NCBI GenBank assembly: GCA_033220425.1 | Contig: CM065648.1 | Coordinates: 5,263,243 to 5,327,242 of the forward strand | Direction of reading: 5' to 3' | Length of the DNA: 64,000 bases | From: Lepraria neglecta | Lineage: Eukaryota > Ascomycota > Lecanoromycetes > Lecanorales > Stereocaulaceae | Made by a program: the position numbers and the translations under genes | The notes under the pieces: generated by a model | What the model saw: only the letters and a program-made list of their open reading frames with translations | What the model was told of the DNA's origin: nothing | The model's database searches: none | In this document: positions 18,411-63,922 of the stretch, in pieces | How positions within the stretch are numbered: position 1 is the stretch's first letter | How the letters are laid out: each line of letters starts with the position of its first letter

Positions 18411-19386
18411 TCTTTTTTCTAATAACAGATTATAAGGACTTTCGGAGTAATTCCGCACTTGTAGCCAATTAGAACATCCCTTTAGAGCTGTATTTCCTCT
18501 CTCGGCTAGCGCCTTCAACCACCAAAAGTCGAATCCGCTACGCACTTCTTCGCAGTAATGCCCCGCGCTATATACGCTATATAATATCGAGATGATTTCA
18601 TATGTTTTGGAGTCAATCATTAGCTTGCTTACGCATCAAGAATTTTTAGAATCGGCCTATTTACGCAATAGTTATGAGCAAAAGAAGCGTTTTCGCTATG
18701 TTTTGCGGGCAGCGCGAGCTCGGTAGCAAATGCCAAGTATTGGGTTAAATATGCATCGCAACTTCTTCGCAGTACTTCCCCGCGCTACATACGTCATATG
18801 ATATCGATATAATTTCGTGAGTTTTGAAACCAAGTATGCGCTTTCCAACACCGTCAAACTTTTCAAAATCGGTCTATTTGCGCAAAAGTTATGAGCAAAA
18901 GAAGCGCTTTCGCCATGTTTTGCGGGCAGCGCAAGCTCGGTGGCAAATGCCAAGCATTGAGCTTGGCGCCCCGGACCCTAGAACATCAAAAGTTGAATAT
19001 GCACCGCAACTTCTTCGCAGCAATGCCCCGCGCTATATACGTCATGATATCGAGATAATTTCGTGAGTTTTGGAACCAAGCATGCGCTTTCCAACGCCGT
19101 TCGAATTTGAAATCTGGCTAAGATTTGGCTGAGGAAAGCTCAAATAACATGTTTTTGCCTGCGCAGTTCCCCAAAGCTACCCCCGCAGCCGCCCCCAAAG
19201 CACTAATATACTAAATCCTTAATAACTTTTGCCCTATTAGGATTAGGGCTTAGCTTTATATGTATAAAATGTACTATAAATATAGGACTTTCTAATACCG
19301 CTTAAATTTCCTAAATCGAGTATAGAATAAGCGAGATATAGCCGTTTTTACTGTAATCTTCTGTGAAGATTACGGGCACTCACTTA
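18411..19386 (+). mobile_element. Helitron-like element, copy 1 (non-autonomous)
   Basis: It begins TCTTTTTTCTAATAACAG after an A and ends CACTCACTTA before a T. A 9-bp-stem hairpin (GTAATCTTC-TGT-GAAGATTAC, 19,353-19,373) lies 13 bases from the 3' end. There is no target duplication. The inside holds two to three copies of a module of about 240 bases (TTCTTCGCAG, CCCCGCGC and ATCGAGAT blocks) and no Rep/helicase gene. It interrupts the family-A integrase. Confidence 0.75.
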
Positions 19387-20844
19387 TATAGATATATATA
19401 ATATTTATTAGCGTATAAAAGCTAGACGGTATCGCCTATATAGCGAAATATATATATTACTATAGCTAAAGGGTCTATAGAAAGAAATTACTATAGACTT
19501 TATTACTAACCTATTACTAAGTAAGCGGAGAGGATATATTTATAATATAATTCTTATAATAGTCGATTAGTATATAAAGATAGTTAGATACTTTCTAATC
19601 TAAAAGACTATTAATACTATTAATCTAGCGGAGCTCTTCTTTAAGGAAATTATCCTTAGATATAGCTATCTAGATAGTATTATCTCGGATAGAGGTAGTA
19701 TATTTACTAGTAGCTTTTAGGCTAAGATTTACTATTAAACGAAAATAAAGAGAAATCTTAGTACTATATTCTACCTCTAAACTAATAGCTAGATAGAACG
19801 CCAAAATTAAACGCTTAAGTATTATCTATATATCTACTACGATAAATAGTAGAGTAACTAGACGGGTCTTCTACTACTAGCTAAATTTATCTATTACTAA
19901 GCTTAATAAACGAGCTCTAAGAGAAGTCTATTTTACTTAATATATAGCTATAAGCTAGAGCTTAAAATATATACTAAGGATAATACTAGAGAGGAAGAGG
20001 TACCTATAGTAAAGGATTATATAAAGTAACTTTATTAAATATAAGATATATTTATAAAATACTAGGTAACTATATAGGAATTATAGGCTAAATACTATAA
20101 TTAATATTATAAGCTACGTATTCTTAATAAAGAGGATTTAGTATTACTATTAACTAAAATTTTAAAGTTAAAAAGACCGAGTAAAAAGATATTCTATAAG
20201 TAGATTAGGCTATTTTATATAGACGAGCCTATTAGAAAGTAAATATACCGCTTTATAATCTCTATAGAATATTTAATTTATTCTATCTTTTATATCTCTC
20301 TTCTAGAGCTATATAAATATAGGCTAAATAATAAGTTAATTCCTGAATTTTAACTCCTAGAACTTATTAATAACTAAAGGTATAGGAAGTAGAAGAGATT
20401 TTAGGAAAATATACTTAGAAAGGAATTATTTCCTATAAAATTAAGTAGAAAGGATAGCTATTATAGTATAATTAGTAGATAGTAGAATAAAATATAGAAG
20501 GTCTATCTTATATATAAGATATATATAATTAATAGCTAAAGAAAGAGCGGAGATAAAGGAAGGGTTAGATTAGCTATATATTAAGGAGAAATTAGGGAGA
20601 AAGGTAAAGTATTTATAGATCTAATAAAAGACTAAATAAGAGATAGTAAGAAGTAACCTCTTCGCTATATAGATATATATAAGAACTACTCTATTTACTA
20701 GTAAAACGCTAGTATATATAATAAATAAACTACCCGAAGACGCTACCAATATTATACGTAAGCGCTATATAGGCAGAATATACGCTAACTATATATTAGA
20801 GCCACCGGGTCTAACAAGACTATCGTAGAGGATAAAGGACTTTG

Positions 20845-23800
20845 GGATAGGATAGGTAGATTAAGCGATAAGCGTAATGTAACCAGGGCGCTTAAGAATG
20901 ATAAGCGCAATGAGCGCAGTGCGATTAGTGCGCTTATAGAAGGCTTGGCAGGATTTCCTATTGCTATATATACGGAGTACTACTTACCACTTGGAGTATC
21001 GTACTCAACCTCTTTCTATTTATAGTAGTATCCTACTATATATAATAGATCTCTTAAGCTAGGCACTAAATATATATTACCTAATTATATACCAGACCCG
21101 CTTAGTATTACTAAGGCCTACTTCGCCTCTTGTATAGTAATACCTCTATCCCTAGTAAGAATAATCTATATATAACCGTTAGTATATAATACGATTTATA
21201 ATACTTTAAGTACCCTTAAGGATAAGTACTATACTAAGAGACCCTAGGGTATCTACCCTAAGCTCTTTAGGAGGGAGTAGATAATAATACCTAACTATTA
21301 ATAAAGGACTTAGTAGATATATTAAGATAGCCTAGCCCGACTTATACTATAGAGAAAGAGATAAGCTTAAGGGATAGCTATCCTAGATATTACTTTATTT
21401 AAAGTTTTAAGGAGACTTTATACCTATATAATAATATTTAACCTTTACTATTACTTACTTATATAGAAGAGCCTAAAAGTAGGTTAATTCGTTCCCTAAG
21501 AAATATATAGAAGATAATAATAAGGATAGCGAAATTAAATAATAGATAGAGAGTATAACTATATTTAGACTTAAAATCTACTATATATTCGGACTATTAA
21601 ACGAGATTAATATAGTAATATAAACTATTTAGTACTTAACTTAGAAGAAGTCTATATTAGAATATTTAACTTAGTTTTAGTAGTATATAGTAAAAACTGA
21701 CTAGGATAATAATATATTAATAATTATATATTAGAGAGGTCTTAAGGATAATATTAAAGATAAGTTTATAAGATTAGAGATTATTAATAATACTCTAGAT
21801 AAGTTAATTAAAGAAGTAATTAAGATTAATAATAAATTATTTAAGAGGACTATAGAGAAAAGGTATAATAGAGGAGTCGGCTAAATAGAATACTTAAGCT
21901 TTTTTACTAAATCGAAGAGCTATTACCTAGGATATAAGGAATACGACCCTTATAGATATATATCTATAGAACTAGACTTTATAGAAAAGAAAGGAAAGTA
22001 AGCCTTTAGAGGGCCTATAAGGGGTAAGAAGTAGTAAAGGGGTAAGAAAATACTAAAGTATTATAGCTATAGTAAACCGGGCTACTTTACTAGAGACTAT
22101 AAGTTAAAAAATATAGTATATTAATAGTAGCTAAATATACTAGAGAAAGTATATGCCTAGGATAATATAGATAATATACCTAAGGAAATTCTACTAGTAT
22201 AGAATAAAGTTAAAGAAGATATTAGTTCCTAGTATAATAGGATAATATAAGAAGAGCTTAATAAAGAATCTAAAAACAGCGATAGTAATTTTATAAGGAA
22301 ATTTAATATACTTATTAAAGATTAATATAGAGAAGACCTAAATACTAAAGATAGTAGTAAGGCTTAAGATAAAGAATCTAAATAGGATTAGGATAAGAGT
22401 AAAATAGACCTAGAGTAGGAAGAAGCCCTTAGTATATTAGAAGCTAAGTAGGAAGAAATATAACTACTAAGGAAAATAATACCTAAAACTACTATATCTA
22501 AGGAAGAAGAAGAAAACTCTAAGGAATATATATAGCTAGACTATCGGATAGATCGAAATTACTAAGGTTACAAGAGTATACTATAGGAAGAATATATATC
22601 GCTTTACTACGCTTAGTATAGTATACTAAGGAATATAGCTAGGGGACTAGTTAGAATACTACCCTGCGGATATAACTATTACTACGAATATTAGGAAAAC
22701 GGATATCTATAGTATCTCGTAACGAAAAGAATTTACTAATACTTTCTAGGACGCGATAAGGAATAGTTAAAGAGAGTTATTAGAGAATTAAACTATAACC
22801 TAAGTATAAAAGAGTACTATTTAATAGAATAGTACGCCTATCTATATAATAACTACAAGAAATATATATAGTCAAAGTCGAAGGTAGGGTTCCTACTCCT
22901 ATAAGCGGGAAAAGAGTAATCCTTTATAGTAGGGGCAGCTATAAGGAGATCAATATATTAACCCCTAAATAATATCTATATTCCGCGTAATACGATATAT
23001 ATATAAAGGTACTAATAATCGTTAATAGATAGCGGACTATCGTGATAATAGATTCTAGAGCTACTAGAAACTTTATTTTATAAGACTTAGTATAATCGAC
23101 TAGAATACTAACTCGAAGGAAGTTATAGTAGTATAATCTTTAGATAGCTAATAGATTAATACTATTAATAGGAAAGGTAGACGAAGAGATACTTTTATTA
23201 CCTAGTATAATTTAATACTACTATAAGGAGATTACCTTTAATATTATTAGGATAGCTACTTATTATATAATTTTAGGAATACCTTAGTTAAAGAAGTATA
23301 ACCTAATAATTAATTAGGCTCGAGGAGTACTCAAGATAGACCGATCTAGAAATATTACTAGGATTATACCTATATATTAGTAGTATTTAATAGTAGATAA
23401 GAAGTCGAACCGAAGACTAGTTAAGGTATATATTACCTTAGCTTTAAATAATAAGGATAGCCTCTAGTAGAGAGGGTCCGACTCTATAATTACTAGTATA
23501 GATTAGTAAGATAATAAAGTAAAAGTAAAGAAAAGAGGAATTAATATACTCTCTATCCCTTAAGAGTATAATATATAGGTATATTTATTCGAGGAAGAGA
23601 CGAATATAAAAGTATTACCTAGGTACTAGCTATAGGATTATAAGATTAAACTCGAACCTAGTAGAGAGCCGATATTTAGATCTATTTATATATTATTAGA
23701 AAAGGAACTTAAAGTACTTCGCGGGTATATCGACGAGAACCTTAAGAAATGATTTATTCGGGAATCTAAATTAGTAGTAGATTATCCTATCCTCTTTATA

Positions 23801-26176
23801 CTAAAGAAGGATAGAAGCTTTAGACTATATATTAACTATCGAAAGTTAAATAATATTACTATTAAGAATAGATATCTATTACTAAATATAGGAAAGCTAT
23901 AGAATCGGCTTAGTAAAGCAAAGATATTTACTAAACTAGATCTTAGAGGTTTATATAACCTAATTTAGATAAAAGAAGGCGAAGAATAAAAAACTACCTT
24001 CTAAATAAGATATAGCTACTACGAGTATCTAGTAATACCGTTTAGACTTACTAACGTACTAGTAACCTACTAAGTACTTATTAATAATATTATATAAGTA
24101 TATTTAGATTGAATAGCGATAGCGTACCTTAATAATATACTAATTTATTCTAAGAATAAGGAAGAATATATTCTATATATATAGGATATCCTTAGATACC
24201 TATTATAAGCGGGACTTCTCCTTAAACCGGAAAAGTGCGAATTCTATAAGGAATTAGTAGAATTTCTAGGATTTATAGTTAGTATAAAAGGTATTAGTAT
24301 AAGCCCGGAGAAGATTAAGGCTATCGCTGAATAACCTATACTATAGGATATTAAAGTAGTATAAAGTTTCTTAGGATTTACTAATTTTAATAGGAAATTT
24401 ATTAAGGGCTACTTAAAGAAAGTACTACCTCTAATAGATATTACGAAGAAGAATATCAGATTTATATAGGAGAAAGACTAATAGAAATTATTCGATATAT
24501 TAAAAGAAGTATATTCGGATCTACTAGTACTCTATACCTTTTAGGCTAATATATCGGCCCGTATCGAAATAGATGCCTTAGATCTTATAATTAGAGTATA
24601 TCTATATTAAATAAAAGACTAAAAGTAGTATCTAGTTACCTACTATTTAAGGAAGATATTAGTAGTAGAATAAAATTATAATATATATAATAAGGAACTA
24701 CTTACCGTAGTATATATATTATAAAACTAGTAAGTATATATAGAGAGCTACTCGGATCTAACTATCTTTATAGATTATAAAAATCTCCTTAGTTTTATAA
24801 TAATAAAAGAATTAAATAGAAGATAGGTTTAATAGTTAGAACTATTAGGTTAATATAAGTTTAAGATAACCTATACCCTAGAAAAAGATAATAGTTAAGT
24901 AGATACCCTTAGTAGGCGATCGGACTATATAGAAGAAAAGAATATTATAGAGTAACTAATCCTAAAAGAAGAGGCGGACGGATTGTTAGTACTATACTAG
25001 ATATTAGCTACGACCCTTCGTATATCGGGACCTAATATAACTAATAGGATTATAAAGGCCTATAACGACGATATACTCGCAGCGGACCTAAGAAAAAATC
25101 AATAGGGTTTAGTATTACTAAAATACTAGGATAAAACTTACTTATCTAATATATACGTTAAGGAAGTAATTAGAGATTACTATAATAACCCTTTATAAGG
25201 TTACCCTAGAGTATCTAAGATAATAGAACTCCTAGGACGAGGATACGCGGCGCTAAGGCTTCAGGCGCGCGTTAAATAATATATTAAAGAATATATTAAG
25301 TGCTAGTAGAATAAGGCGGCACGATACGCTAAGTATAGATAAATATAGTTTATACCTATACTAGAGTCACTATAGGATAATATTATATTGGACTTTATAG
25401 TAAAGTTACTACTATTAAAGGACCTAGCTATATAAGATATCTTTAATTTAATTATAGTTATTATAGATAAACTAACGAAGTATATAATTATAATACTATT
25501 TAAGGAGACCTATAAAGTAGATTAGCTAGCCTTTATACTACTCGACAAACTAATAAGGGATTATAGTATACTAAAGTCGATAATATCCGATAGAGATAAG
25601 TTATTTACGTCTAACTACTAGAGAATACTTATAGCAGCGATTAGAACGAAACTTCGGATATCAATAGTATATTACCTATAGACTAATAGCTAGACTAAAC
25701 GCGTAAACTAAATGATAGAAGTATACCTAAGATACTATATAAACTAGAAATAAGATAACTAGGTTTTACTACTTCTAATAGTATAACTAGTATATAATAA
25801 TAAGAGGTTAGATATAACGGGACTAACTCTATTCTTTACTAACTTCGGGAAGGATATAAATATATTTCTAGATCTAAGGATAGGACCTAATATAGAAAAA
25901 GCCCTAGTTAAGATAGAAGAGCTAAAGAATTTATATAAGGATATATAAAGGTCTATTAAAAGCTTAAATAGTAAGTTAAAGGAATAGATAAATAAGAAAA
26001 GAAAGAATATTTCTTAGCTAAAAGAGGGGGATAAAATATACCTCCTAATAAAAAATATAAGAATAATAAGACTAAGTAAGAAACTGGATTATATTAAGGT
26101 CGGACTATTCTTAATTAGGAAGATTAAGGGACCAGTTAACTATAAACTCTAATTACTACCTAATACTAAGTTATTG
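20845..26176 (+). mobile_element. Ty3/Gypsy chromovirus, family B, copy 1 (3'-truncated)
   Basis: The 5' LTR is about 20,845-21,203 (ends TTATAATA, then CTTTAAGTACCC). Gag has a zinc knuckle at 22,051-22,100 reading KYYSYSKPGYFTRDYK (Cys now Tyr). RT spans about 23,690-24,400 with the catalytic box as YLNNILIYS at 24,124. RNase H is about 24,540-24,930 and integrase about 25,130-25,860, including LDFIVKL and IISDRDKLFTS; the TERQN-type Glu has become Lys (TKRVN). It stops at 26,176, where another element begins TGTAACGGGG. It supplies uninterrupted reference sites for the insertions in copy 2. Confidence 0.8.
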
Positions 26177-28735: not shown

Positions 28736-28739
28736 TTTA

Positions 28740-31700
28740 GTTTAAAAAAGCCTAGATATAATAATACCCTTACTAAGTAACCTGATTATACTAGACTATT
28801 CTTTGTACTAGCTCTAGCCCTAGATAATACCTACCTATCTTATATTATCCTTAGAATCGGTTATATACGCGATAATAAATTCTATCTTGTCTAACTACGG
28901 TATATTATATATAATACTTCGCTTACTAATACTAACTAGCTCTAGGACTAACTTAGCTATAATACTCTAATCTAGTTCCTAGAAACTAAGAAATTCTAGA
29001 CTACCGAAGATAATACCCGGGGGAGTACCCTTATCTATATATCTAATAGGATTATAGAGGTAACTATAAACGAAGATCTACAAAATACTATCCGCGATAT
29101 ATATTTATATAGTTACTAGCGCTATAAGCTTTATATTATACAAGGGGTACTCTATTAGTTATACTACGTTAATTAATAGTTAGGATATTAACTAATAGAT
29201 ATAATAGAATCTATTAAGGGTAATACGGCCTATCTAAATTAACCTTACTAAGGTAGTTTTACCCTCTCCTATCGCTTAAAATATTCTTCTCTTACGGTAG
29301 GATCTAAAGGGAAAACCCTTAATATATAGGATCCTCTAGATAAAGACCCTACTATCTCTTCTACTAAACCCTCTACCCTAAAGCCTTTTATTAATCCTTC
29401 CCTTCTTACTAATAAATATACTAGTCCGTCTACCGGGGATCTAAAGGAGCCTATAGATATTAGCTCTAGCTTAGATAGTAGTAGTAGTATAAATAATAAG
29501 GAAGAGAATAATAGAAAGGAAGGGGATTTAATAGATAAGGACGAGTAGAAGGTATTATAGATTAATAAGTTAGTGCCCGTAATCTTCACAGAAGATTACC
29601 GTAAAAACTACTACATCTCGCTTATTTTATACTCGATTTAGAAAGTTTAAGCCTAATTTGAAAGCCCTCTATTTATAGTATATTTTTTGTATATAAAGAT
29701 AAGCCCTAACCCTAATATATCGAAAGTTATTAAGGGTTAAATATTTGAGTGCTCCTCTATCATGGACCATCTCTGCTGCTAAGCCATTTAGGGCTGAGGC
29801 CCGCATATAAGCAGATTCTGCAACTCCGTATAGAATCATCATCTTTTATACTATTCAACCCATCCGATCTCATCGATCCATCATCAGACGTCCGTACCGT
29901 GACATCCTCGGGGGTGACTGCGGTGGTAGCTTCAGGGAACTCCGCAGGCAAAAACATGTTTTTTGAGCTTTCCTTAGCCAAATATTTACCGAATTTCAAA
30001 ATTCGAACGGCGTTGGAAAGCGCATGCTTGGTTCCAAAACTCATGAAATCATCTCGATATCGTATGACGTATGTGGCGCGGGGCATTGCTGCGAAGAAGT
30101 TACGGTGCGTATTCAACTTTTGATGTTCTAGGGTCCGGGGCGCCAAGCTCAATGCTTGGCATCTGCTACCGATTGTGCTGCCCGCAAAAACATGGCGAAA
30201 ACGCTTCTTTTGCTCATAACTTTTGCGTAAGTAGACCGATTTTGAAAATTTTGACGGCATTAGAAAGCACATACTTGGTCCCAAAACTTATGAAATCATC
30301 TCGATATCGTATGACGTATGTGGCGCGGGGCATTGCTGCGAAGAAGTTGCGGTGCGCATTCAACTTTTGATATTCTAGGTCCGGGGGCGCCAAGCTCAAT
30401 GCTTGGCATCTGCTACCGAGCTCGCGCTGCCTGTAAAACATAGCGAAAACGCTTCTTTTGCTTATAACTATTGCGCAAATGGGCCGATTCTAAAAATTCT
30501 TGATGCGCAAGCAAGCTAATGATTAAGTCCAAAACTTATGAAATCCTCTCGATATCATATGGCGTATGTGGTGCGGGGCATTGCTGCGAAGAAGTTGCGG
30601 TGCGTATTCAACTAAGCTTGCGCTGCCCGCAAAACATGGCGAAAACGCTTCTTTTGCTTATAACTATTGCGTAAATAGGCCGATTCTAAAAGTTCTTGAT
30701 GCGCAAGCAAGCTAATGATTGACTCCAAAACTTATGAAATTATCTCGATATTATACGACGTATGTAGCGCGGGGAAGTACTGCGAAGAAGTGCGCAGCGT
30801 ATTCAACTTTTAATGGTTGAAGGCGCTAGCCGAGAGAGGAAATGCAGCTCTAAAGGGCTGTTCTAATTGGCTATAAGTGCGGAATTGCTCCGAAAGTCCT
30901 TATAATCTATTATTAGAAGAAAGATAAGGCCTATATAGGTAGGACTCTAGGGTTATATAATATTAAGATAGATAGGGTAGTAGTAGCTAGAGTAGCTACG
31001 AAAGATATAGAGGTATTAGAATAGGAGGATCGTAATAGAATATAAGTACTTTAGCCTCTACCTTATTATTTACTCGCTACTAAATACTACCCTAGTATTA
31101 ATATAACTAAGATAGAGGACTATCTATAATAGTCTTAGAAAACGTAGTAGTATATAGAGTTATTATTCTAACTCTAGAAGGGAAACTAGTCTATTAAGAA
31201 TATATAAACCCTCTATAGGTTATTATCTATTATAGCCCCCAATAGTAAGATAAAAAAGATTATACTATATATTTATTAGCTCTACTACGCTGCTTAGATA
31301 TACTAGTATACTTACTAGTAGAGGAGGGGTATTAATAGAGACGATCTCGGCTTTAGTAAGGTTTATATCTATTTCTAGCTTTTAATAAAACCTACTATCG
31401 ACTTAGATAATACTAATATCTAACTCGAACTAGACTCTGACGATTTTTATTATATATATCCTTAAGTATTAACTCTCTTTATAATAGCGCGAGGTTTTCG
31501 AAATATATAAATAGGATTATAAAAATCTTAAATAGTTTAAAGCGTTAATCTATTATACTAAGTATCTCCTACCTTCGAAATTAAAGGTATAGAGCGGTAA
31601 TAATATATATCCCTCCGCTAATAAATAGGATATTAGTTATCTATATATTAAGAAAAGTACTATCTATTTAACTAGTATACTAAAGTAAGGTATTATTCTT

Positions 31701-33420
31701 ATTATTATACTAGCGAAAGTAATAGGTAACTAGTTATAAGAGTAGACGAAGATAATTAATATTTAATATCTAATATTAAAGCTACGATACTTCTATAGCT
31801 ATATAGGTAAAATATATAATAATATTAACGCTACCCTACTTATATTAGAAAATACTAAACTACTTTAATATAAAAAGGATAGAAAATCTAAACCTAGATA
31901 GGAGTATATTCTACTCCTTATAACTAAGGGCTTATATAATAGGTATATTAAGGAAGTACTATAGGACTCTAAGTCTCTATTCGTCTATAACTTCTATATC
32001 GGCTAGATCTTTATTATCGAATTCTATAAGATAAGGATAGTAAAGGGTAAATATCCTAAGATAGTCTTTAGTATTAAGGATAAGATTAATACTTAAATCC
32101 TAGTAAAAATACTAGAGGATAATAAAAAGGAGTAGAATACTATAGATAATCGGTATATAAAAATATACCGATTATCTTTACCCTAGATATAGGGTTTCTC
32201 CGCTATACCGTAGATATATAACCTAACTAACTACTTAGCTATAATCTATATAATCGAGTAGCCTTAGTAGTACGCTATTAAATAGTATTAATATATAACT
32301 TATAACGAAGTCGAGGTTATTAGGAAACTAACTACTAGCTACTAAAAGTAAAAGAATCCGGTTAATAAGAGCGAGAATAATAAGAATATTATAGAAATAA
32401 AGGCTATCTTAAACTCTATCGAAATTAAGCGGATATCTATAACTATAGATATTAATAGGACTACCGAGCTTATTAAGCTACCTTCGTACGAGACTCGTTA
32501 TATTATATACTTACTTAATCTAGAGTAATAGGCAGCTCTTTATACTAAGGATTAGAGGATCTAAGATATAGTAAAAGCCGAATATACTAGAGAATATATA
32601 ATTACTCGCAAGGCTAGTAAGGAGATACCTATACCAGCGATTAATAACTACTTTAAATATACCTATAAGCTATATACTACTACTATTATCCTAAGCCTTC
32701 TAGAATTCTCTCGATATAACTACCTTACTCTTACTTAGGATAAGCTTAAAGAGGGGTCTTTATATAATAACGGAAAGGATTATATAGATTTTATAGAGTT
32801 AGCTAGCCTAATATAGAATTAGGCCAAGATGCCGCTAGATAGTATTTATACTAAATATATTAATAAACTTACTAGTAATATACCGGAGTTAGTAAAACTT
32901 AAAGAGTTAATCGGTTTACTAGAGGAAGATATCTATAGGTAACTAGAGAAACTGGTTATATTTACTAGTTCTCCTATTATTATATATATTCTAGTAGTAG
33001 TAAGTCTATATCTCTTCCGCTATTCTACCTTAATCTTATACTAACCTTACTCTAGTAGTTTAAAAAGTATTTTTCTAGTAAATAGCTATAGTATAGCTTA
33101 ACCGTACTATCCGAGAAGTGAGATAAGTTATATATATAGCTATTCTAAGAAGAGGACGATAAGCGCTTCCTTATCTCTATAAAATATATCCTTAGAACTA
33201 GTATTACCCTAACCTATATATTTAGAAGTATAAATATAGATATAGACTAGATATAATTCTATAATATTTAGTATAATAGATAGATAGTTCGGTTATCTTA
33301 GCGAAATCTAAAGATATATAACTACTACTTTATTATAGACGATAAATATAGAGTAGATTAGAAGATATTATTTAAATAGAGTAGAGATAATATAATAAGG
33401 TAATAGGCGTATAAATAAGC
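28740..33420 (+). pseudogene. Degraded SNF2-type helicase-like gene D1, interrupted by a Helitron
   Basis: A long plus-strand frame can be followed if stops fitting CAG/CAA changes are ignored. An N-terminal part runs to 29,565, and the same frame resumes after the Helitron at 30,925 (KIDRVVVARVATKDIEVLEQ, LQPLPYYLLATKYYPS). Later it reads LPSYETRYIIYLL, TRKASKEIPIPAINNYFKYT and LEKLVIFTSSPIIIYIL. The last blocks resemble the C-terminal helicase half of SNF2-family ATPases in fungi. The Walker A region is not clearly readable. The family call is inference from these motifs. A homologous segment lies at 35,600-38,636. Confidence 0.45.
29566..30924 (-). mobile_element. Helitron-like element, copy 2 (non-autonomous)
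   Basis: It is in reverse orientation. The hairpin GTAATCTTC-ACA-GAAGATTAC is at 29,579-29,599 next to one end, and the TCTTTCTTCTAATA end (complement) is at 30,924. It lies between A (29,565) and T (30,925). Gene D2 has the matching empty site (ATTAG^TAAAGCC near 35,890), which shows no target duplication. It holds about four modules and an extra segment at about 29,745-29,940 that copy 1 lacks. The open frames inside (for example 29,749-30,123) are repeat shadows and not genes. Confidence 0.78.
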
Positions 33421-33737
33421 CAGATATTTCTAGTTAAGTAATAGCGCGCTTTTACAGGGTTCTTTTCTTCTACTTAGTAGTACTTTAACTTTATATAAGA
33501 TAGATATAAAACTCTTATTACTCTTCTATAGTAATATTAAATCTAATCTATATTAGTTCGGGAAGACTTGAAAGTACTTAGATTACTAGCTATTCCCCTT
33601 TGCTTTCTCCTATCTTTAGTAGATATTTTATACTATAGCCTTCCTTGAATATCTACTACCAAAATCTAGATATATATTAGAACTAGGAGTTCTAATAGGA
33701 CTATCGCGAAGGATAAGGAGCTTCAGATAGGACAAAT

Positions 33738-34074
33738 TTGGATCGCACGCTAATAAGCTAGATCGTATTAGTTATAATTCGGATCGTATTGATTATAATT
33801 CAGACCGTATTAATCAAGAATACTTAGTATAGATTTCGTATATCTATATATACGGAGTACTACTTACTACTTGGAGTATCGTGCTTAATTTACTATTTAA
33901 TTATTTACTATATACGATATATCTCTTAGGCTAGATACTAAATATATATTATCTGATTATATACTAGACCCGTTTAGTATTATTTAAAGCCTGCTTTACC
34001 TCTTATTCGGTTGTACCTCTATCCCTATTAAGAATCAATCTATACTATAATATCGGAACGTACGGTTTGTAATA
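33738..34074 (+). repeat. Solo LTR of Gypsy family B
   Basis: It matches the family-B LTR through TACGGAGTACTACTTA, the GATATATCTCTTAGGC region and the end TACGGTTTGTAATA. No family-B internal sequence is attached on either side. The first part diverges, so the left boundary is approximate. Confidence 0.65.
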
Positions 34075-35600: not shown

Positions 35601-38600
35601 GATATTCTTCTCTTATAATATAACCTAAGAATATAATCTATAATATATAGAATCCTCTATACGAAGACTCTACTACCTCTCCCGCTAAACCCCTCGCCCT
35701 AAAGCCTTATAATTCTCCTCCTTAATTAAGTAAGCCTACTAGTATTTCCTACCCGGCCTCTAAATAATCCTATACTTATCTATTCCGATATAAATAATAG
35801 TAGCTATACTAGTAATTAGGAAGAGAAGGAGTAAGAGGAGGAAGGGGATATTATAGAAGAGGATAAGAAGAAGGCGTTAAAGATTAGTAAAGCCTATAAT
35901 AGTAGGGTTCCGAAGTTATATAATATCGAGATAGATAGGGTAGTAGTAGCTAGAGTAGCTACGAAAGATCTAGAGGTATTAGAATAGGAGGATCGCGATA
36001 GGATATAAGTACTTTAACCTCTACCTTATTATTTACTCGCTACTAAATACTACTCTAGTATTAATATAACTAAGGTAGAGGACTATCTATAATAGTCTTA
36101 GAAAATATAGTACTATATAGAGTTATTATTTCAGCTATAGAAGGGAAACTAGTCTATATAGAATATACGAAACCTCCGTAGATTATTATCTATTATAGCC
36201 CCTAACGGTAAAATAAAGAAGATCGTACTATTTATTTATTAGCTATACTACGCGGCTTAGATAAGATAGTAGGCTTTCTAATAGGGGGAAGCTATCTATA
36301 GGCGAGATTCTAGTTTAGGGATATCTAAACTAGATTATTACTTCTATTAAGGACTCTAGTCGACTTAGATAATATAGATATTCGACTTAGGCAACGCTAA
36401 CGTCCGACTCTATCTAGATCGAAATCTATATATATAAAATTATCTAATAATTCGAAACGTCGCCTTATTATAATAAGTATCTCTTACTAGAGAGATTAAA
36501 GCTATAGAGTTATTATAATATATATCTATCGGCTTATAAATAGAATATTAGTTATCTATATATTAAGAATAGTACTACCCGGAATATTAGCGCAGCGAAG
36601 TTAGGTATTATTCTTACTATTATACTAGCGAAAGTAGTAGGTAATTAGTTATAATAGTAGACGAAGATAATCGATATAAAGCGGACGCTATATACTTAAG
36701 ATATCTCTAGGACTATCGATCTGGTATAACTACCTCCCTACGAGATTCGTTATATTATATACCCGCCTTTACTAGTATAGTATAAAATATAGCTCTTTAT
36801 ACTAAGGATTAAAGGATCTAAGATAAAGCGAAAGTAAAATATACTAGATAATATATAATTACTTGTAAGGCTAGCAAGGAGATACCTATACTAACGACTA
36901 CTAACTACTTTAAACGTATATATGAACTACGCGCCGCTACTATAGTCCTAAGCCTTCTAGGATTCGCTCGGCTTAATAACCTATCTCTATATACTAACGA
37001 GCTCGAAGGAGGGGATTTATATAACGGCGGCGAGGGTTATACAAACTTTATAGAGCTAGCTAATCTAAGAGAAGACTAGACTAAATACTCGCTAGCTAGT
37101 ATCTATATCTATTATATCGAATATTTTATTAATAATAGTCCGAAGTTAGTTATATTAAAGGATTTTATTATTAAACTAAGGGAGGATATTATCGGAACAT
37201 CGCGCTTTCCCAAAAGATTATGTCATTAGCGTCACAGCTAGTTTTGCGCTGTCAGCAGGCCGCATGGCGATCAGGGTCTACATCCCATGTCAATTGCGGG
37301 CCGAGAAATCAGTAGGATCAGCAACTCCGGTTACTGTTAGCAACTCCAAGCTAACCAAGCAGCAACCAAAAATCATCCCCGAAGACATGCGACCGCGCGC
37401 AATGATTACGATACTGCGACGCCGCAACTAAACCCCCAGGGTAGCTACGAACATCACCCCCGCGAGAACTTGGGCCCAATCGCACGATTCCGGGGTCCGT
37501 TTTCAGCTGGTGTTGATAGGGCTCTGGGGGAGTCGCTGCCGTCGATAGCGACGATCATAGAAAATCAACATTTTGCTTAGTCATCAATCACGTGATTCGC
37601 TGAATACTTGCTAATCCTGCTGATCCTACTATTAGCAAGCCGGAGTTGCTGAATACGCTGAAATCGCGCTATTAGCGAGCGCTATTTGCTAATCCTGCTA
37701 ATAGGCTAATTTCAGCCCTATCCGCGCGTCTAGCAAATTAGAAGTTCTCAGTAAGATTTGGGAAAGCGCGATGAAGACTATAATAACTATCTATAATTAC
37801 TAAGCTATCTACTACTATATATATTCTGGCGATAGTAGGTCTATAGCTCTTCTACTATTTCGCCTAAGCTTTATACTAACCTTACTCTAGTAGTTTAAAA
37901 GGTATTATCCTAATTAATAACTATAGTATAGCTTAGCCTTACCTTTCGGGAAATAAGATAAATTATTCGTATAGGTATACTAAGGAGATAACTATTATAA
38001 CTTTGTTCTCTCTACGAACTACGTTCTTAAAACTAGTATTACTCTTACCTATACCTCTAGAAGTATAAATATAGATATAGACTAGATAAAGTACTATAGG
38101 ATTTAATACTATAGACGGGTTATTTAGTAGTAATAATAAAGATAGAAGGTATATAAGTATAGTATATTTCTAGATAAGGTAAAGGGATCTTAATTTAATT
38201 ATTATCTAGATAGGTAGATAGAAAGCTCTTAGTAAGAGTAGATATAATATAATAGAATTAACCTATAGATATTACTAGTAGTAAATTTAAGGACTAGTTT
38301 AAATATTATAAATAGTAGACCCTATTATTCGAATTAGAGACTATAGAGAAACTATACTATTTAACTTAATATTACCGATATAATATTTATATCCTAGAAT
38401 CCCGCTATAAAGACCTAGCTAATACTACCCGCCGCTTTTCCTAACCTAGATTCGTCTTCTCTAATAAATATAAATACTATTACCGCCGTAGAGGATATAG
38501 TTCCGCTAGCTTAATATATATCTACTAGTAGAGATTTTCTTTATAGAATATATTATAAACGGAAGGAGGTATCTAATTATTATTAACTAAGTCGAAGAAC

Positions 38601-38636
38601 TAATTCAATCGGTTAAGCTTATAATATAACTCTATA
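35600..38636 (+). pseudogene. Degraded SNF2-type helicase-like gene D2 (paralogue of D1, internally deleted)
   Basis: It aligns with D1 over KALKISKAYNSRVPKLYNIE, IDRVVVARVATKDLEVLEQ and LQPLPYYLLATKYYSS. It then skips most of the central ATPase region and rejoins at TRYIIY, CKASKEIPI and FIELANL. The MITE-like copy 2 (37,199-37,772) interrupts it just before the expected EKLVIFT block. It diverges from D1 by more than C-to-T changes, so the two are separate paralogues or old copies. Function is inferred only. Confidence 0.42.
37199..37772. mobile_element. MITE-like element, copy 2
   Basis: It is inverted relative to copy 1, with ends ATCGCGCTTTCCCAAAA and TTTGGGAAAGCGCGAT. It keeps normal base composition, with few RIP-like changes, inside strongly mutated DNA. 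It has no coding capacity. Confidence 0.75.
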
Positions 38637-39980
38637 TCTTTCTTCTAATAACAGATTATCGCGACATTCGGAGCAATTCCGCACTTGTAGCCAATCAGAA
38701 CATCTCTTTAGAGCTGCATTTCCTCTCTCGGCTAGCGCCTTCAACTACCAAAAGTTGAATCCGCTACGCACTTCTTCGCAGTAATGCCCCGCGCCACATA
38801 CGCTATATGATATCGAGATGATTTCATATGTTTTGGAGTTAATCATTAGCTTGCTTGCGCATCAAGAATTTTTAGAATCGGCCTATTTACGCAATAGTTA
38901 TGAGCAAAAGAAGCGTTTTCGCCATGTTTTGCTTGCGTACCGTAACTTCTTCGCAGGACTTCCCCGCGCCACATACATCATATGATATCGAGATGATTTC
39001 ATAAGTTTTGGAACTAAGCATGCGCTTTCCAACACCGTCAAAATTTTCAAAATCAGTCTACTTACGCAATAGTTATGAGCAAAAGAAGCGTTTTCACTAT
39101 GTTTTACAGGCAGTGCGAGCTCAGTAGCAAATGCCAAGCATTGAGCTTGGCGCCTCCGGACCCTGGAACATCCGCAACTTCTTCGCAGTAATGCCCCGCG
39201 CCACATATATCATATGATATCGAGATAATCTTATCAGTTTTGGAACCAAGCATGCGCTTTCCAATACCGTCGAAATTTTCAAAATCGGTCTATTTGCGCA
39301 AAACTTATAAGCAATACTCGCACATGGCGATATGGCGCCGGATTGCCTATTCGCACATGGCGATATAGCGATCATGGCACCGGATGGCTCATTCGCACAT
39401 GGCGATATGGCGACGGATTGCCTATTCGCACATGGCGATATGGCGGTAGATTGCCTATTCGCACATGGAGATATGGTATCGGATTGCTCATTCGCACTGT
39501 TGGCTATATGGCACCGGATTGCCTATTCGCATATGGCGATATGGCGGTATGTTGCCTATTCGCACTGTTGGCGATATGGCACCGGATTGCCTATTCGCAC
39601 ATGGCGATATGGCGGCAGGTTGGCTATTCGCACATGGAGATATGGTACCGGATTGCTCATTCGCATATGGCGATATGGCGATATGTTGCCTATTCGTTCC
39701 GAGGGCATTCCAATGGCTTCCGGGGGCGAAAAGTATCCTGGAACCATCCAAACCATGCAAAGCTTCAAAGATTATTTCTGTATCCTAGAGCTATCTAAAT
39801 AGCCAGCTCTTATATATACCAAAACCGTTGCTATTATATAAAGTTATAGATAAGCTTATAATTCAACACTATAGATAGATTACTTTCTAATTTCGCTTAA
39901 ATTTTCTAAATAGAATATAAAATAAGCGAGATATATCCGTTTTACGGTAATCTTCTGTGAAGATTACGGGCACTCACTTG
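38637..39980 (+). mobile_element. Helitron-like element, copy 3 with 33-bp minisatellite
   Basis: The 5' end is TCTTTCTTCTAATAACAG after A (38,636). The 3' hairpin is at 39,947-39,967, and the end CACTCACTTG is followed by T (39,981). There is no target duplication. Inside are modules shared with the other copies, then a 33-bp tandem array (39,318-39,696), then a unique tail. There is no Rep/helicase gene. Confidence 0.78.
39318..39696 (+). repeat. 33-bp minisatellite, about 11 units
   Basis: The unit is built on CGCACATGGCGATATGGC followed by a short variable part and GGATTGCCTATT. Because 33 is a multiple of three and the unit has few stops, several overlapping frames stay open and show an 11-residue repeat. 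These are best explained as repeat shadows. Confidence 0.85.
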
Positions 39981-42900: not shown

Positions 42901-43640
42901 TACTAAAATTAAGGCTAAAGAACTATCTCCTAAGGAGGGTCTTAATAAGACTAATTTAGAGTTTAAAAACTAGGATAGTTTTTTCGCTTCCCTTACCTTT
43001 AGTAATAATTCAGCGGAGATAATAGATATCTAGGTATTTTTAATATAAGACTTCGAGTATATATAGAAGGAGGCCGGCCTACTAGTAGATAAGAGTCTTT
43101 AGGAAGAGAATTATATTATAGATATTAAAGAGTATAGTAGGTTAGTAGAGAGGTAGATTATAGAGGATAAAATAGTATATCTAAATATTATTCTAATAGG
43201 AGAAGAACCTAAGGACTAGGCTACTAAGGATACTGCGGAGGGGATAGATAATAGATTAATAGAGTATAAAGCTTAGACGGGAGGAAGTCTAACGGAATCA
43301 AGCTGTTATTAATCGAATATATAGCTATTAAACGTATAATATAAAAATAATTATCGTATTATCTTTTAAAATCGCCTAGCTCGGATAATACTACCTATAG
43401 GTTAATTCTAGATAAGATATCTAACTTGAATATACCTACTATAGCGGAGGATATATCCGAACTATCCGACTCGGATGACTTCCTATCTACTAATATTATC
43501 GATATACTATCTAAGCGTATATATTTCGTATTCCGGAATAAATATATAATAGTAGCGTTAGTCCACGAAAGCAACTTTTGATACTAATATTATAGGCGCC
43601 TAGCGCAGCAATTTAAGGTTATAGATACTACTATCGGTAA
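42900..43640 (+). pseudogene. RIP-degraded coding segment, unknown family
   Basis: The plus strand gives one continuous acidic frame when TAG is allowed for CAG (FFASLTFSNNSAEIIDI, FEYIQKEAGLLVDKSLQ). It continues to ISELSDSDDFLSTNIIDIL and FVFRNKYIIVALVHES before reaching the MITE-like fragment. It looks like real former protein, but I do not recognise a family. Confidence 0.4.
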
Positions 43641-43773
43641 CCTCGAGTTACTAATTTAGCTAATTTCTCAGTCCGTAATCGATATAGAATATAGATCCTA
43701 ATCGCTATACGGCCTGCTAATAGCGCAAAACTAGCTGTGACGCTTATGATATAATCTTTTGGGAAAGCGCGAT
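43640..43773. mobile_element. MITE-like element, copy 3 (one end only)
   Basis: It matches copies 1 and 2 from CTAATTTCTC through CGCTATACGGCCTGCTAA to TTTGGGAAAGCGCGAT. The other terminal repeat is missing. It is more RIP-mutated than the two full copies. Confidence 0.65.
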
Positions 43774-43858
43774 AGAGCGTATAGGACTCGTAGCGCTAAC
43801 GCACGCCAAGCGTACGGTAATCGCGAGCCAACCAAGACTTTGCCAAGCTTTCTATTAT
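43774..43858 (-). repeat. Gypsy family A LTR fragment
   Basis: The reverse complement matches the family-A LTR start at 14,076 (AATAGAAAGCTTGG, CTCGCGATTAC, GTGCGTTAGCGCT). It is cut by the MITE-like fragment on its left. Confidence 0.65.
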
Positions 43859-44075
43859 AGTACCCTAGTACTTTAGTATTATAATAGATCGCGACTAGTA
43901 GTACTCGGGACGGATTTATCCGATTATATTAATAGTAGAGTCCTATCCTAAGCTGACGATAACGGAGTACTCTATCTAGTTATATTCTATAGTAAGAACT
44001 TATTACCTATAGAGTATAACTATAAGATCTATAATAAGGAGCTATTTATAATCATCCGCTATCTAGAATACTAGT
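43859..44075 (+). pseudogene. Gypsy RNase H fragment
   Basis: The plus strand reads LSDYINSRVLSQADDNGVL, YSKNLLPIEYNYKIYNKEL and FIIIRYLEYQ, which is the Ty3/Gypsy RNase H block. It ends where a family-B LTR begins. Confidence 0.7.
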
Positions 44076-44434
44076 TATTACGAACCGTACGTTCCGGTAT
44101 CGTAGTAGGGATTGATTCTTAATAGGGATAGAGATATAATCGGATAAGATATAAAGCAGGCTTCAAGTAATACTAAGCGGGTCTAGTATATAATCAGATG
44201 ATATATATTTAGTGCCTAGCCTAAGAGATCTATTATATATAGTAAATAATTGAATAGTAAGTTAAGTACGATACTCCAAGTGGTAAGTAGTACTCCGTAT
44301 ATATAGACATACGAAATCTATACTAAGCGCTTCTGATTGTATTAATTATACTGATCGTACTGCGCTTACTACGCTCCCTGCGCTTATCGCTTAGTATACT
44401 AAGTATTTAGGGTCTATTCGAGTCGGATACTACA
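44076..44434 (-). repeat. Family B LTR (3' LTR of copy 2)
   Basis: In sense orientation it starts TGTAGTATCCGACTC and ends GGTTCGTAATA (probably ...AACA before mutation). It is the same length as the LTR at 53,242-53,600. Confidence 0.8.
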
Positions 44435-46510
44435 GATTTCTCGTCCTAAGAAACTATCTATCCTTTATACTACCCTAATATACTAAATATTTAGATAAAC
44501 CGACTGTCCGCCGAATAGTACTAGCTAGTAAGCTAACTAAAGTCGTAATACGGCTATATTCCCGATATGTTGCTAGCGGCAAATAGTACTTGATAGGTAT
44601 AGGATCTAATAGGTATTCTAACTATATAGGTAGTAGTAGGAAGTACGACCTTGTAGTATTACCCCTTAAGATATATTATATTAAGATAGAACGAAAGGAA
44701 GCGTAGTTATAGTTAAAAACTACGCGCGAAGAGTTAGCTCGTTCTATAGAAGAGTCTATCTATCTTTAGACTATACTAATACGCCTTTAGATATAGTATA
44801 AATACCTTAAAAATAAGAAGCGAAAGATTATAGACTAAGAGATATAGAATATTAAGGAGTTAGAAGAAGACTAGCGGTCTATCCTAAGCGTTCCTAATAA
44901 CTAGATATTTAACGTCTTGTCCGAGTAGTTCGGCTTCCTAGATAGTATCGATTAGTCCTCCTTCTATAATATTCCCGGAACTCTTATAGAAGTCCCTAGC
45001 AGTTCGTAAGATTCTTAAGTAGTTCCTAGGTATTTTCGGTATCGTCGTACCCTTTCTATTTAATTAGATACTTCTAATTAACCTAGCTTAGAATCCTCTT
45101 AACCTCGAACTCCGTTTCTTCTTTAATATTATAATAAAAAGTTTCTTATAAGGGTATATTAGAGTCTACTAGCTCTAAAAGTAAGATATAGAATACCGGA
45201 TATACCTTGGCGTCAGGTAGTAGTTAGATTTTATAGTTAACTAGTCCTTTTAACCGCTTAATTAAGAATAGTCCGACCTTAATATAATCTAGTTTCCTAC
45301 TTAGTCTCGTTATTCTTATATTTTTTATTAGGAGATATACTTTATCCCCCTCTTTTAGCTAAGGAATATTCTTTCTTTTTCTATTAATCTACTCCTTTAA
45401 TCTACTATTTAAGCTTTTAATAGACCTTTATATTTCCTTATATAAATTCTTAAGCTTATCTATCTTTACTAAGGCTTTTTCTATATTAGGTCCCTTTCTA
45501 GATTATAGAAATATATTTATATTCTTTCTATAATTAGCGAAGAATAGTATCAGCTTTATTATATCCGACATTTTATTATTATATACTAGTTATACTATTA
45601 GAAGTAGTAATATTTAGTTATCCTATTTCTAGTTAATATAGTATCTAAGATATACTTCTATTATTTAATTCGTATATTCCGTTTATCTATCTATCTATAG
45701 ATAGTATACTATTAATATTCTTAGTTTTATTCCGATTACTCTAATAAGCGTCTTCTAGTAATTTAATATAAATAGCTTATCTCTATCCGATATAATCGAT
45801 TTTAGTATACTATAGTCTCTAATTAGCCTATCTAATAGTATAAACGCTAGCTAATCTACTTTATAGATTTCTTTAAAAGGTACTATAATAGTATACTTTA
45901 TTAGTTTATCTATAATAACTATAATTGAATTAAAGGTATCTTAGATAGCTAGATCCTTTAATAGTAGTAGCTTAACTATAAAGTCTATCGTAATATTATC
46001 CTATAGTAATTCTAGAACCGGCGTAAACTATATTTGCCTATATTTAGTATATCGTATAGACTTATTCTACTAGTATTATATATACCCTTTAATATATTGT
46101 TTAACGCGCGCTCGAAGCCTTAGCGCTATATATCCTCGTCCTAGGAGTTCTATTATTTTAGATACTCCTAGGTAACCTTATAAAGGGTTATTATAGTAAT
46201 CCCTAATTACTTCTTCGGTATATTATTTAGGTAGATAAGTTTTCTCCTAGTATTTACATAATATAGTATCTAGCTAATTCTTCTTTAGAGTTATTATAAA
46301 TATATCGTCTTTATAGACCTTTACGATCCTGTTAGTTATATTAGGTCCCGTTATATAAAGGGTTATAGCTAATATCTAGTATAGTACTAATAATCCGTCT
46401 GCTTCTTTCATTAAGATCGGTTACTCTATAATATTCTTCTCTTCTATATAGTCCGATCGCCTACTAAGGGTATCTACTCGACTATTATCCTTTCCTAGGA
46501 TATAGGTTAT

Positions 46511-47583
46511 TGTCGCTATAGTGCAAGCGTTGCAATATATCAATGAGATCTATGAATGTGAACAGCCTGAGGAGCCAGAATCTATGGAATAAGGCTCCTA
46601 ATATACATGATGGAGTGTCAAACAGTAGAAGACGCTAGAATGTTGACAAAGAAATGGTGATAAAGGAAAATGGCAAAGGAAAATGGCAAATAGCATACAA
46701 TACACCCCCCAGCTTGAGCGCTGTTGCGATTAGGCTGTAAAAATCACACAATGAGGGTTGAAATGTCGGCCATGTTGAGGAGTTTGATGAAGTTTTGGTG
46801 TTTTTGAATTGGTAAAGTTTTGGTAAGGCCATCTGCTGGCATATCGGCCGTTGGAATCCATGAGGCTGTGACCCGTTTTTCCTGGATTTCCTGCCTAAGC
46901 CAGCAAATATGTACGTCTATATGCCGTAGACGCGTTGAAAGTGTCGCTGGCTATGTTAAGACGTTTGATGAAAGGTAATAGTAGGACGAACTGCCTAATA
47001 AAAAGGATCGTCTATAGCGGTGATGGATTTGGGAGGATAGGGTTGTTGGAATGGTAGGATTTGGTAGTGGAGTGAGTATTGGCTCAGGATCGAGCGATAG
47101 GTCTATGAGATCCTAAATGATGGCTCAGGATCGAGCGATGGGTCTATAAGATCCCAGATGAAGGCTTCTTTCCTCCTATCTTGCTAGGGCTTGGATAGCC
47201 TTGGGGTTCTTGTTGATACGTAGTTACAGGGCTCGGCCGCTGGATTAGCTACGCGATGTAGTGCTGTGGCTAATGGTGCCTGATTGATGATATAGTTGAA
47301 TGGTAGTGAGGCTGAGGCTGTTAATGAAGATGATACAGCGGTGGTAAGCTTAATATGGTCTAGCGTAATTAAGCGAACCAGTTGGGGCAAACCGGGCTTA
47401 TAACTGTCGCTATGGTGCAAGCGTTGCAATGTATTAATGAGATCTATGAATGTGAACAGCCTGGGGAGCCAGAATCTATGGAATAAGGCTCCTAATATAC
47501 ATGATGGAGTGTTAAATAGTAGAAGACGCTAGAATATTGACAAAGAAATGGTGATAAAGGAAAATAGCTAATAGTATACAATA
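46511..47583 (-). mobile_element. Miniature Copia derivative (TRIM-like), nested in family B copy 2
   Basis: It has two LTRs of the same family as the element at 171-3,887 (46,511-46,702 and 47,405-47,583). The polypurine tract complement (CACCCCCC) follows the left LTR, and the leader/primer-site region precedes the right one. The target duplication GTTAT is at 46,506-46,510 and 47,584-47,588; copy 1 of family B shows the single ATAAC at 24,866-24,870. Only about 180 bases of the RNase H end and about 500 bases of leader remain. It could have moved only with proteins supplied by a full element. Confidence 0.85.
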
Positions 47584-49147
47584 GTTATCTTGAATTTATA
47601 TTATCCTAATAGTTCTAACTATTAAACCTATCTTCTATTTAGCTCTTTTATTATTATAAAGTTAAGAAGATTCTTATAATCTATAAAGATAGTTAGATCC
47701 GGGTAGCTTTCTACGTATACTCGCTAGTTCTAAAATATATAGACTATAGTAAGTAGTTCCTTGTTATATATATTATAGTTCTATTCTACTACTAATATCT
47801 TCCTTAAATAGTAGATAACTAGATACTACTTTTAGTCTTTCATTTAATATAGGTATACTCTAATTACTAGATCCGAGATATCTATTTCGATATAGGCCGG
47901 TTCGTTAGCCTGAAAGGTATAGAGTACTAGTAGATCCGTATACGCTTTCTTTAATATATCGAATAATTTCTATTAGTCTTTTCCCTATATAAATCTAATA
48001 TCCTTCTTCGTAATATCCGTTAGAGGTAGTACTTTCTTTAAATAGCCTTCGATAAACTTCCTATTAAAGTTAGCGAACCCTAAGAAGCTTTATACTACTT
48101 TAACGTCTTATAGTATAGACTATTCCGCTATAGCTTTGATTTTATCTAGGCTTATACTAATACCTTCTATACTAACTATAAATCCTAGAAACTCTATCGA
48201 CTATTAATAAAATTTATACTTTTCTAGTTTAAGGAGAAGTCTCGCTTGTAATAGGTATCTAAGGACGTCCTATATATAAAAAACGTATTCTTCCTTATTC
48301 TTAGAATAAATTAGTATATCGTTAAGGTACGCTATCGCTATTCGATCTAAATATACTTATATAATATTATTAATAAGTATTTAGCAGGTTACTAGTATAT
48401 TAGTAAGTCTAAATAGTATTACTAGATACTTATAGTAGCTATATCTTATTTAGAAGGTAGTTTTCTATTCTTCGCCTTCTTTTATCCGAATTAGATTATA
48501 TATACCTCTAAGATCTAGTTTAGTAAATATCTTTGCTTTCCTAAGCCGATTCTATAGCTTACTAATATTAGGTAAAGGGTATCTATTCTTAATTATAATA
48601 TTATTTAACTTTTAATAGTTAATATATAGTCTTAAGCTTCTATCCTTCTTTAGTATAAAGAGGATTAGATAATCTACTAGTAATTTAGATTCTCGAATAA
48701 ATCCCTTTTTAAGGTTCTTATTAATATACCCGCGAAGTACCTTAAGTTCCTTCTCTAATAATATATAAATAGATCTAAATATTAGTTACTTACTAGATTC
48801 AAGTTTAATCTTATAATCCTATAGCTAATACTTAGATAATACTTCTATATTCGTCTCTTCCTTGAATAAGTATATCTATTTACTATATTCTTAAGAGATA
48901 GAGGGTATATTAGTTCCTCCCTTACCTCTTACTTTATTATCCTACTAACCTTTACTAGTAACTATAGAGTCGGACTACCTTTTAGTACCGTCCTTATATA
49001 AAGCTAAGGTAATATATACCTCGACAGGTCTTCGGTTCGACTTCTTATCTACTATTAAATACTACTAATATATAGGTATAATCCTAGTAATATTATTGGA
49101 TTAATCTATCTTGAGTACTCCTCGAGCCTTAATTAATTATTAGGTTA

Positions 49148-51148
49148 CAAGTGAGTGCCCGTAATCTTCACAGAAGATTACCGTAAACCGGATATATCTC
49201 GCTTATTTTATACTCTATTTAGAAAATTTAAGCGAAATTAGAAAGTAATCTATCTATAGTATTGAATTATAAGCTTATCTATAACTTTGTATAATAGCAA
49301 CGGTTTTGGTATATATAAGAGCTGGCTATTTAGATAGCTCTAGGATGCAGAAATGATCTTTGAAGCTTTATATGGTTTGGATGGTTCCAGGACACTTTTC
49401 GCCCCCGGAAGCCATTAGAATGCCCCCGGAACGAATAGGCAACATACCGCCATATCGCCATGTGCGAATAGGCAATCCGGTGCCATATCGCCATGTGCGA
49501 ATAGGCAATCCGGCGCCATATCGCCATGTGCGAATAGGCAATCTACCGCCATATCGCCATGTGCGAATAGAGCAATCCGGTGCCATATCTCCATGTGCGA
49601 ATAGCCAACCTGCCGCCATATCGCCATGTGCGAATAGGCAATCCGGTGCCATATCGCCAACTGTGCGAATAGGCAATCTACCGCCATATCGCCATGTGCG
49701 AATAGGCAATCCGGTGCCATATCTCCATGTGCGAACAGGCAATCCAGCGCCATATCGCCATGTGCAGAATAGGTAATCCAGCGCCATATCGCCATGTGCG
49801 AATAGGCAATCCGTCGCCATATCACCATGTGCGAATGAGCCATCCGGTGCCATATCGCCATGTGCGAATGAGCCATCCGGTGCCATATCGCCATGTGCGG
49901 ATAGGCAATCCATCGCCATATCGCCATATGCGAATAGGCAACCTGCCGCCATATCGAATAGGCAACCCGGTGCCATATAGCCAACAGTGCGAATAGGCAA
50001 TCCAGTGCCATATCGCCATGTGCCGAATGGGCAATCCTATGCCATATCGCCATGTGCGAATAGGCAATCTACCGCCATATCGCCATGTGCGAATAGGCAA
50101 TCTACCGCCATATCTCCATGTGCGAACAGGCAATCCATCGCCATATCGCCATGTGCAGAATAGGCAATCCAGCGCCATATCGCCATGTGCGAATTGAGCC
50201 ATCCGGTGCCATATCTCCATGTGCGAACAGGCAATCCATCGCCATATCGTCATGTGCAGAATAGGCAATCCAGCGCCATATCGCCATGTGCGAATAGGCA
50301 ATCCATCGCCATATCGCCATGTGCGAATTGAGCCATCCGGTGCCATATCGCCATGTGCGAATAGGCAATACATCGCCATATCGCCATGTGCGAATAGGCA
50401 ACCTGCCGTCATATCGAATAGGCAACCTGATCGCCATATCGCCATGTGCGAATATTGCTTATAAGTTTTGCGCAAATAGACCGATTTTAAAAATTTCGAC
50501 GGTATTGGAAAGCGCATGCTTGGTTCCAAAACTGATAAGATTATCTCGATATCATATGACATATGTGGCGCGGGGCATTACTGCGAAGAAGTTGCGGTGC
50601 GCATTCAACTTTTGATGTTCCAGGGTCCGGAGGCGCCAAGCTCAATGCTTGGCATTTGCTACTGAGCTCGCACTGCCTGCAAAACAAAGTGAAAACGCTT
50701 CTTTTGCTCATAACTATTGCGTAAGTAGACTGATTTTGAAAATTTTGACGGTGTTAGAAAGCGCATGCTTGGTTCCAAAACTTATGAAATCATCTCGATA
50801 TTATATGATGTATGTGGCGCGGGGAAGTCCTGCGAAGAAGTTACGGTGCGCAAGCAAAACATGGCGAAAACGCTTCTTTTGCTCATAACTATTGTGCAAA
50901 TGGGCCGATTCTAAAAATTCTTGATGCGCAAGCAAGCTAATGATTGAATCCAAAACATATGAAATCATCTCGATATCATATGACGTATGTGGCGCGGGGA
51001 AGTAGTGCGAAGAAGTTGCGATGTAAATTCAAGTTTTGGTGGTTGAAGGCGCTAGCCGAGAGAGGGAACACTGAATATAGGGCCAATCTAATTGGCTATA
51101 AGTGCGGAATTGCTCCGAATTTCGCCATAATCTGTTATTAGAAGAAGA
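49148..51148 (-). mobile_element. Helitron-like element, copy 4 with large 33-bp minisatellite
   Basis: Reverse orientation. The hairpin is at 49,161-49,181, the outer end CAAGTGAGTGCCC (complement of CACTCACTTG) starts at 49,148, and the other end is TTATTAGAAGAAGA at 51,148. It lies between A and T. The uninterrupted sequence is present in family B copy 1 (GAAGTA^TAACC, about 23,293-23,303), which proves insertion without target duplication. It contains about 31 minisatellite units, then modules shared with the other copies. No Rep/helicase gene. Confidence 0.82.
49432..50455 (-). repeat. 33-bp minisatellite, about 31 units
   Basis: On the plus strand the unit is GCCATATCGCCATGTGCGAA, then TAGGCAATCC plus a variable triplet. 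Some units carry one- or two-base changes (for example GTGCAGAATAG, GAATTGAGCC, ATATCTCC) and a few are shortened. Overlapping frames of up to about 246 codons stay open in the array. They show only 11-residue repeats and lack any start, splice or domain logic. Confidence 0.9.
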
Positions 51149-63890: not shown

Positions 63891-63922
63891 TTTTAGGGTT
63901 TTTGGGGGGGTTGGAACGCGAG

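Follow-up and report, generated by a model that had tools for sequence, protein, structure and literature searches.

The four repeats in the window, a stretch of 64,000 nucleotides at the end of contig C3 in the 42.0-Mb genome of Lepraria neglecta, are almost certainly non-autonomous members of one Helitron (rolling-circle) family that has RepHel-bearing partners elsewhere in the genome. The preliminary description, made from the window, had recognized the repeats by a hairpin, fixed ends and insertion between A and T; our data support this observation as right and its interpretation as largely right. In its anatomy the family is Helitron1-like. Since TTAGGG repeats (63900-64000) terminate the window, it represents a chromosome end.

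The boundaries given for the four copies were exact. Copy 1 (18411-19386, plus strand, 976 bp) opens with A^TCTTTTTTCTAATAACAG and closes with CACTCACTTA^T, and copy 2 (29566-30924, minus strand, 1359 bp) has the 3' end CACTAACTTA. Copy 3 (38637-39980, plus strand, 1344 bp) and copy 4 (49148-51148, minus strand, 2001 bp) both end in CTTG^T, and CTTA, which the preliminary description took for a mutated form, occupies this position in copies 1 and 2. All four share the 5' end A^TCTT(n)CTAATAAYAGATTAT and sit between A and T. Each carries the proposed hairpin, with a 9-bp stem, a 3-nt loop and a spacing of 13 nt from the last base, at 19353-19373 (plus), 29579-29599 (minus), 39947-39967 (plus) and 49161-49181 (minus) in copies 1 to 4, respectively. 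A 19-nt 5' end occurs four times in the window (shuffled mean 0.20, with four occurrences in 0 of 100 shuffles), and a 33-nt hairpin end occurs exactly at the four copies and in none of 100 shuffles.

Genome-wide, the hairpin 3' end was found at 257 places with up to three mismatches, 65 of them without mismatch, and a 23-nt 5' end at 231 places with up to two mismatches; the reversed controls gave 0 for both. Within copy 3, one stretch of 171 bp has matches of 92-100% identity at 41 places, its own among them (40 of 81 candidates scored). Among 40 distinct 3' ends in the first fetched DNA, 36 read CTTG and four CTTA, and T is the next base in every case. Pairing of ends gave 27 pairs, which were reduced to 26 elements from 26 distinct 5' ends by dropping a 3,928-bp pair at L042 that joined the 5' end of a nested copy to the 3' end of its host element. 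A stands immediately before the 5' end of 25 of the 26 elements, and T follows 27 of 27 3' ends, against flank frequencies of 0.34 for A and 0.35 for T. In the exception, L031, our script had placed the 5' end five bases too early, and A precedes TCTTTCTT there. A second sample, consisting of 20 hairpin-end places with one mismatch, chosen manually among the 35 listed, returned 19 CTTG and one CTTA, with A before 17 of the 18 5' ends in reach (the exception, L070, has a changed first base) and T after 19 of 20 3' ends. The lone 3' end with A next to it is L072 (G000:C1:1206749-1208981).

Insertion without target duplication had been claimed from two empty sites in the window. The site of copy 4 stood in full: its relative at 23179-23417 (plus strand, 93% identical) reads GAAGTA^TAACC with no duplication, and four further empty loci were found for this copy. 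For copy 2, the relative at 35795-36007 (minus strand, 81-83% identical) is indeed empty and free of duplication, but its junction is not A^T; it reads TTTA^CTAATC, which is A^C in the orientation of the element. L036 supplies an empty site without duplication for copy 3, and the sole relative of copy 1, L047, constitutes weak evidence at 71% identity. Across the family, a joined-flank search recovered an empty relative for 22 of 26 elements, with none among the fetched sequences for L012, L018, L021 and L039. The comparison is gap-free within 10 bases of the junction for 18 elements, and for L015, L022, L031 and one of L032 it is available with small gaps near the junction only. The best empty relative has A^T in 20 cases, A^C in one (copy 2) and T^C in one (L031), the last being unreadable because the 5' end of L031 was mis-set. 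None of the 21 readable comparisons contains a target duplication.

The absence of Rep and helicase from the window was borne out by tblastn with three relatives, which found no RepHel there at E<=1; seven scanned ORFs of the 19 (at least 90 aa) in the four copies gave no Pfam domain, and Rfam gave no match in the window at the gathering score. The preliminary description took this absence to imply a partner element elsewhere, and RepHel remains flanked by both family ends were indeed found in this genome. In L046 (7,061 bp) and L039 (8,501 bp), remains of Rep and of the helicase lie between the 5' end and the hairpin/CTTG end, all on the same strand. L046 occupies a clean A^T empty site, with a relative inside the window (33417-33653, minus strand, 92% identical, TTTAA^TATTAC), and pieces of L046 hit the domains Helitron_like_N (E 2.7e-16) and PIF1 (E 7.4e-42). 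Copies 1-4 align to its first 293-332 bp and last 115-169 bp at 84-90% identity. The 5' subterminal unit occurs about twice or more in tandem in the short copies, and a 33-bp minisatellite spans 39318-39680 (plus strand, 10.6 units) in copy 3 and 49432-50416 (minus strand, 29.8 units) in copy 4. A third long element, L043, is about 8.7 kb with a degraded 3' end (hairpin with four mismatches). At L042 (G000:C1:6169278-6179277), a 1,004-bp non-autonomous copy (4112-5115, minus strand) is nested in a RepHel element of the same family, and other RepHel copies provide its A^T empty relatives.

Helitron_like_N matches 26 places in the genome, 25 of which (24 loci) fall outside the family of L045, a second Helitron discussed below. 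In 12 of these 24 loci, Rep is preceded at a distance of 2.3-2.9 kb by a family 5' end on its own strand, namely at six of the seven longer loci (L039-L043 and L046; L044 is without it) and six of the 17 short windows (L050, L051, L057, L060, L061 and L063). It was not found in the stretch read at the other 12, of which 11 are windows of 0.9-1.0 kb. The Rep match at C3:5160082 has another 5' end about 3.5 kb upstream. P0001, the closest relative without stops, shares 36-53% identity with individual pieces of the family elements and aligns to Helraiser with 608 bits. Both HUH histidines of L046 read tyrosine when compared with P0001, and the element therefore looks dead. Stops interrupt all 25 family Helitron_like_N matches, as well as every RepHel match of a wider search (39 of 83 candidates scored) except those at L045. 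The best-preserved RepHel piece, at C6:1750000, has two stops in approximately 400 codons. It belongs to L067 (G000:C6:1747000-1754500), where approximately 2 kb of other DNA separates a lightly mutated family RepHel fragment (2881-4347) from the next matching piece (6387-6497); the family ends are absent from L067, around this piece. Because every RepHel match found is mutated, the enzyme of the family is probably dead in the present genome, or else the assembly lacks an intact copy.

A very unlikely alternative is that the family belongs to the Helitron2/Helentron type, as do FoHeli1-5 of Fusarium oxysporum (Chellapan et al. 2016, PMC5148889), which are likewise fungal Helitrons with non-autonomous derivatives. 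In the portion of that paper cited here, FoHeli elements have asymmetric terminal inverted repeats, some with hairpins at both ends, start with TCAG or TGCCT, end with ATTTT or CTCCTGT, and insert at TNAT^T (two subgroups) or TT; the majority of the fungal Helitrons found there group with Helitron2. The window copies allow a weak 4-bp hairpin to be folded close to their 5' end. Yet comparison of the first 60 nt with the last 80 nt gives a longest exact inverted match of 6 in every one of 22 elements, against shuffled means of 5.9-6.3, and it is because no asymmetric inverted repeat exceeds chance that we consider the anatomy Helitron1-like. A^T insertion with a TC start also counts against this type. 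As to the endonuclease domain of Helentrons, the three L046 pieces scanned against Pfam, which cover part of the element and stop short of about 0.7 kb after the helicase, matched only Rep, PIF1 and PIF1-2B.

It is also very unlikely that the short copies are driven by L045, the other, intact-looking Helitron of the genome, rather than by RepHel partners of their own family. L045 holds the sole stop-free PF14214 match of 26, and a related 5' end (TCTCTTTATAATAACAGAATAT) adjoins its 855-aa RepHel frame. Its RepHel, however, is only 25-40% identical to the family RepHel pieces (32% for the Rep part of L046), a genome search allowing three mismatches finds its presumed hairpin end a single time, and its N-terminal part is apparently split across frames. 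This second Helitron family lies at G000:C6:349000-357999 (2439-5003 and 6100-7878). Downstream of the stop-free frame, a hairpin and CTTG are directly followed by the TCTCTTTATAATAACAGAATAT 5' end and an N-terminal Helitron frame; given its single genome occurrence, the 3' end of L045 is presumed and unconfirmed. Finally, a short-TIR cut-and-paste element (MITE) driven by a DDE transposase would also be short, non-coding and multicopy, but this is close to impossible given inverted-repeat agreement at 1-3 of 15 terminal positions (22 elements), ends that enclose RepHel, and a search for the two observations named beforehand as contrary, target duplications and another transposase between the ends, in which neither appeared (21 comparisons; 7 of 19 ORFs in Pfam).

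For the rolling-circle family, we propose a mechanism modeled on that published for Helraiser. A RepHel enzyme would nick at the TC end, and the helicase would then peel one strand away. Strand displacement might pause at the 3' hairpin, a cut after CTTG would allow the strand to close into a circle, and the circle would insert at an A^T site. Of the full element, the short copies retain approximately 300 bp at the 5' side and 115-170 bp at the 3' side, and their 5' subterminal unit has been multiplied in tandem; copies 3 and 4 additionally carry the 33-bp minisatellite. Their mobilization would have been in trans. We infer the RepHel activity itself, since each RepHel match is mutated.

Comparison with known systems places the unusual 3' end in context. 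The family has the 5' TC start of Helitrons but departs from the strict 3' CTRR, and the earlier remark to this effect was correct; CTTG has nevertheless been published as the 3' end of HELPO2 from Pleurotus ostreatus (Castanera et al. 2014, PMC4289320), and we therefore do not take the departure from CTRR as excluding a Helitron. As far as the cited text of that study goes, HELPO2 also shares the subterminal hairpin, A^T insertion, lack of duplication and RepHel (PF14214, PF05970). HELPO2 is given eight rows in strain PC15, with young, near-identical full elements and no intact non-autonomous copies in that account, whereas the present family has 231-257 ends, a great majority of short copies in our sample, and mutated RepHel copies. 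Helraiser/Helibat (Grabundzija et al. 2016, PMC4778049; PDB 7lcc) shares the TC start, terminator hairpin, A^T insertion and RepHel. According to the sections of PMC4778049 drawn on here, its hairpin lies 11 nt from the end, compared with 13 nt in the present family, and it ends in CTAG, unlike CTTG/CTTA; some insertions from mutant Helraiser donors had CTTG, and CTTG is cited there for maize. The 13-nt distance is slightly beyond the range of about 10-12 nt that appears in PMC5148889. The titles and abstract openings returned by a literature search did not name the present family, which does not imply that it is unpublished.

The part worth following is the contrast in RIP between short and long copies. 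The composite RIP index was compared between elements and their flanks (up to 1 kb). In the first sample, it was below that of the flanks in 21 of 22 short copies (median -0.55 vs 1.32) and above zero in three (L015, L030 and L031). Most of this sample was retrieved through a perfect match to an end in which CA sites occur, a choice that favours unmutated copies. The second sample, with one-mismatch ends, gave a similar result, with 17 of 18 below their flanks (median -0.49 vs 1.09) and two of 18 above zero, for a pooled count of 38 of 40 short copies. Copies with two or three mismatches, and those too decayed for the pattern, were outside both samples, so the contrast may still be exaggerated; the flanks of a few elements are likewise unmutated. 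Three long elements have an index of 0.95-1.14. The DNA beside the four window copies is strongly RIP-like, at about 1.4-1.75.

Some short copies are nearly identical, including L020/L024 (99.6% over 989 bp) and L032/L036 (99.1% over 1,019 bp). L030 and L031 differ at 52 positions, and since 35 of these are of RIP type, RIP does reach some short copies. The CA/TG-rich sequence of the short copies may itself lower the index. Over the common first 300 bp, CA+TG per base is 0.103 in short copies vs 0.057-0.067 in the three long ones, and the same stretch therefore truly differs between them. RIP in Neurospora has a length threshold. Two readings remain: the short copies may fall below the length that RIP needs, or they may have moved after RIP ceased. 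It is possible, though we hold it tentatively, that short derivatives escape the RIP that destroyed the long coding copies, that they are young passengers without a working driver, and that the defence thereby selects short forms.

The CTTG end is a known variant, of which this is a second fungal case, and the family itself is a well-supported addition to the Helitrons. Short and full-length copies as well as empty sites are now available for a Helitron1-like ascomycete family, in contrast to the mostly Helitron2-like fungal Helitrons in the cited portion of PMC5148889. With mutated long and spared short copies, size-dependent escape from RIP becomes testable within one family of more than 200 insertions. 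Elsewhere in the window, a 334-codon open frame (3886-4887) is 98% identical to an unnamed protein, and its closest named protein is a Talaromyces marneffei acetyltransferase (PF02458), at 72%.
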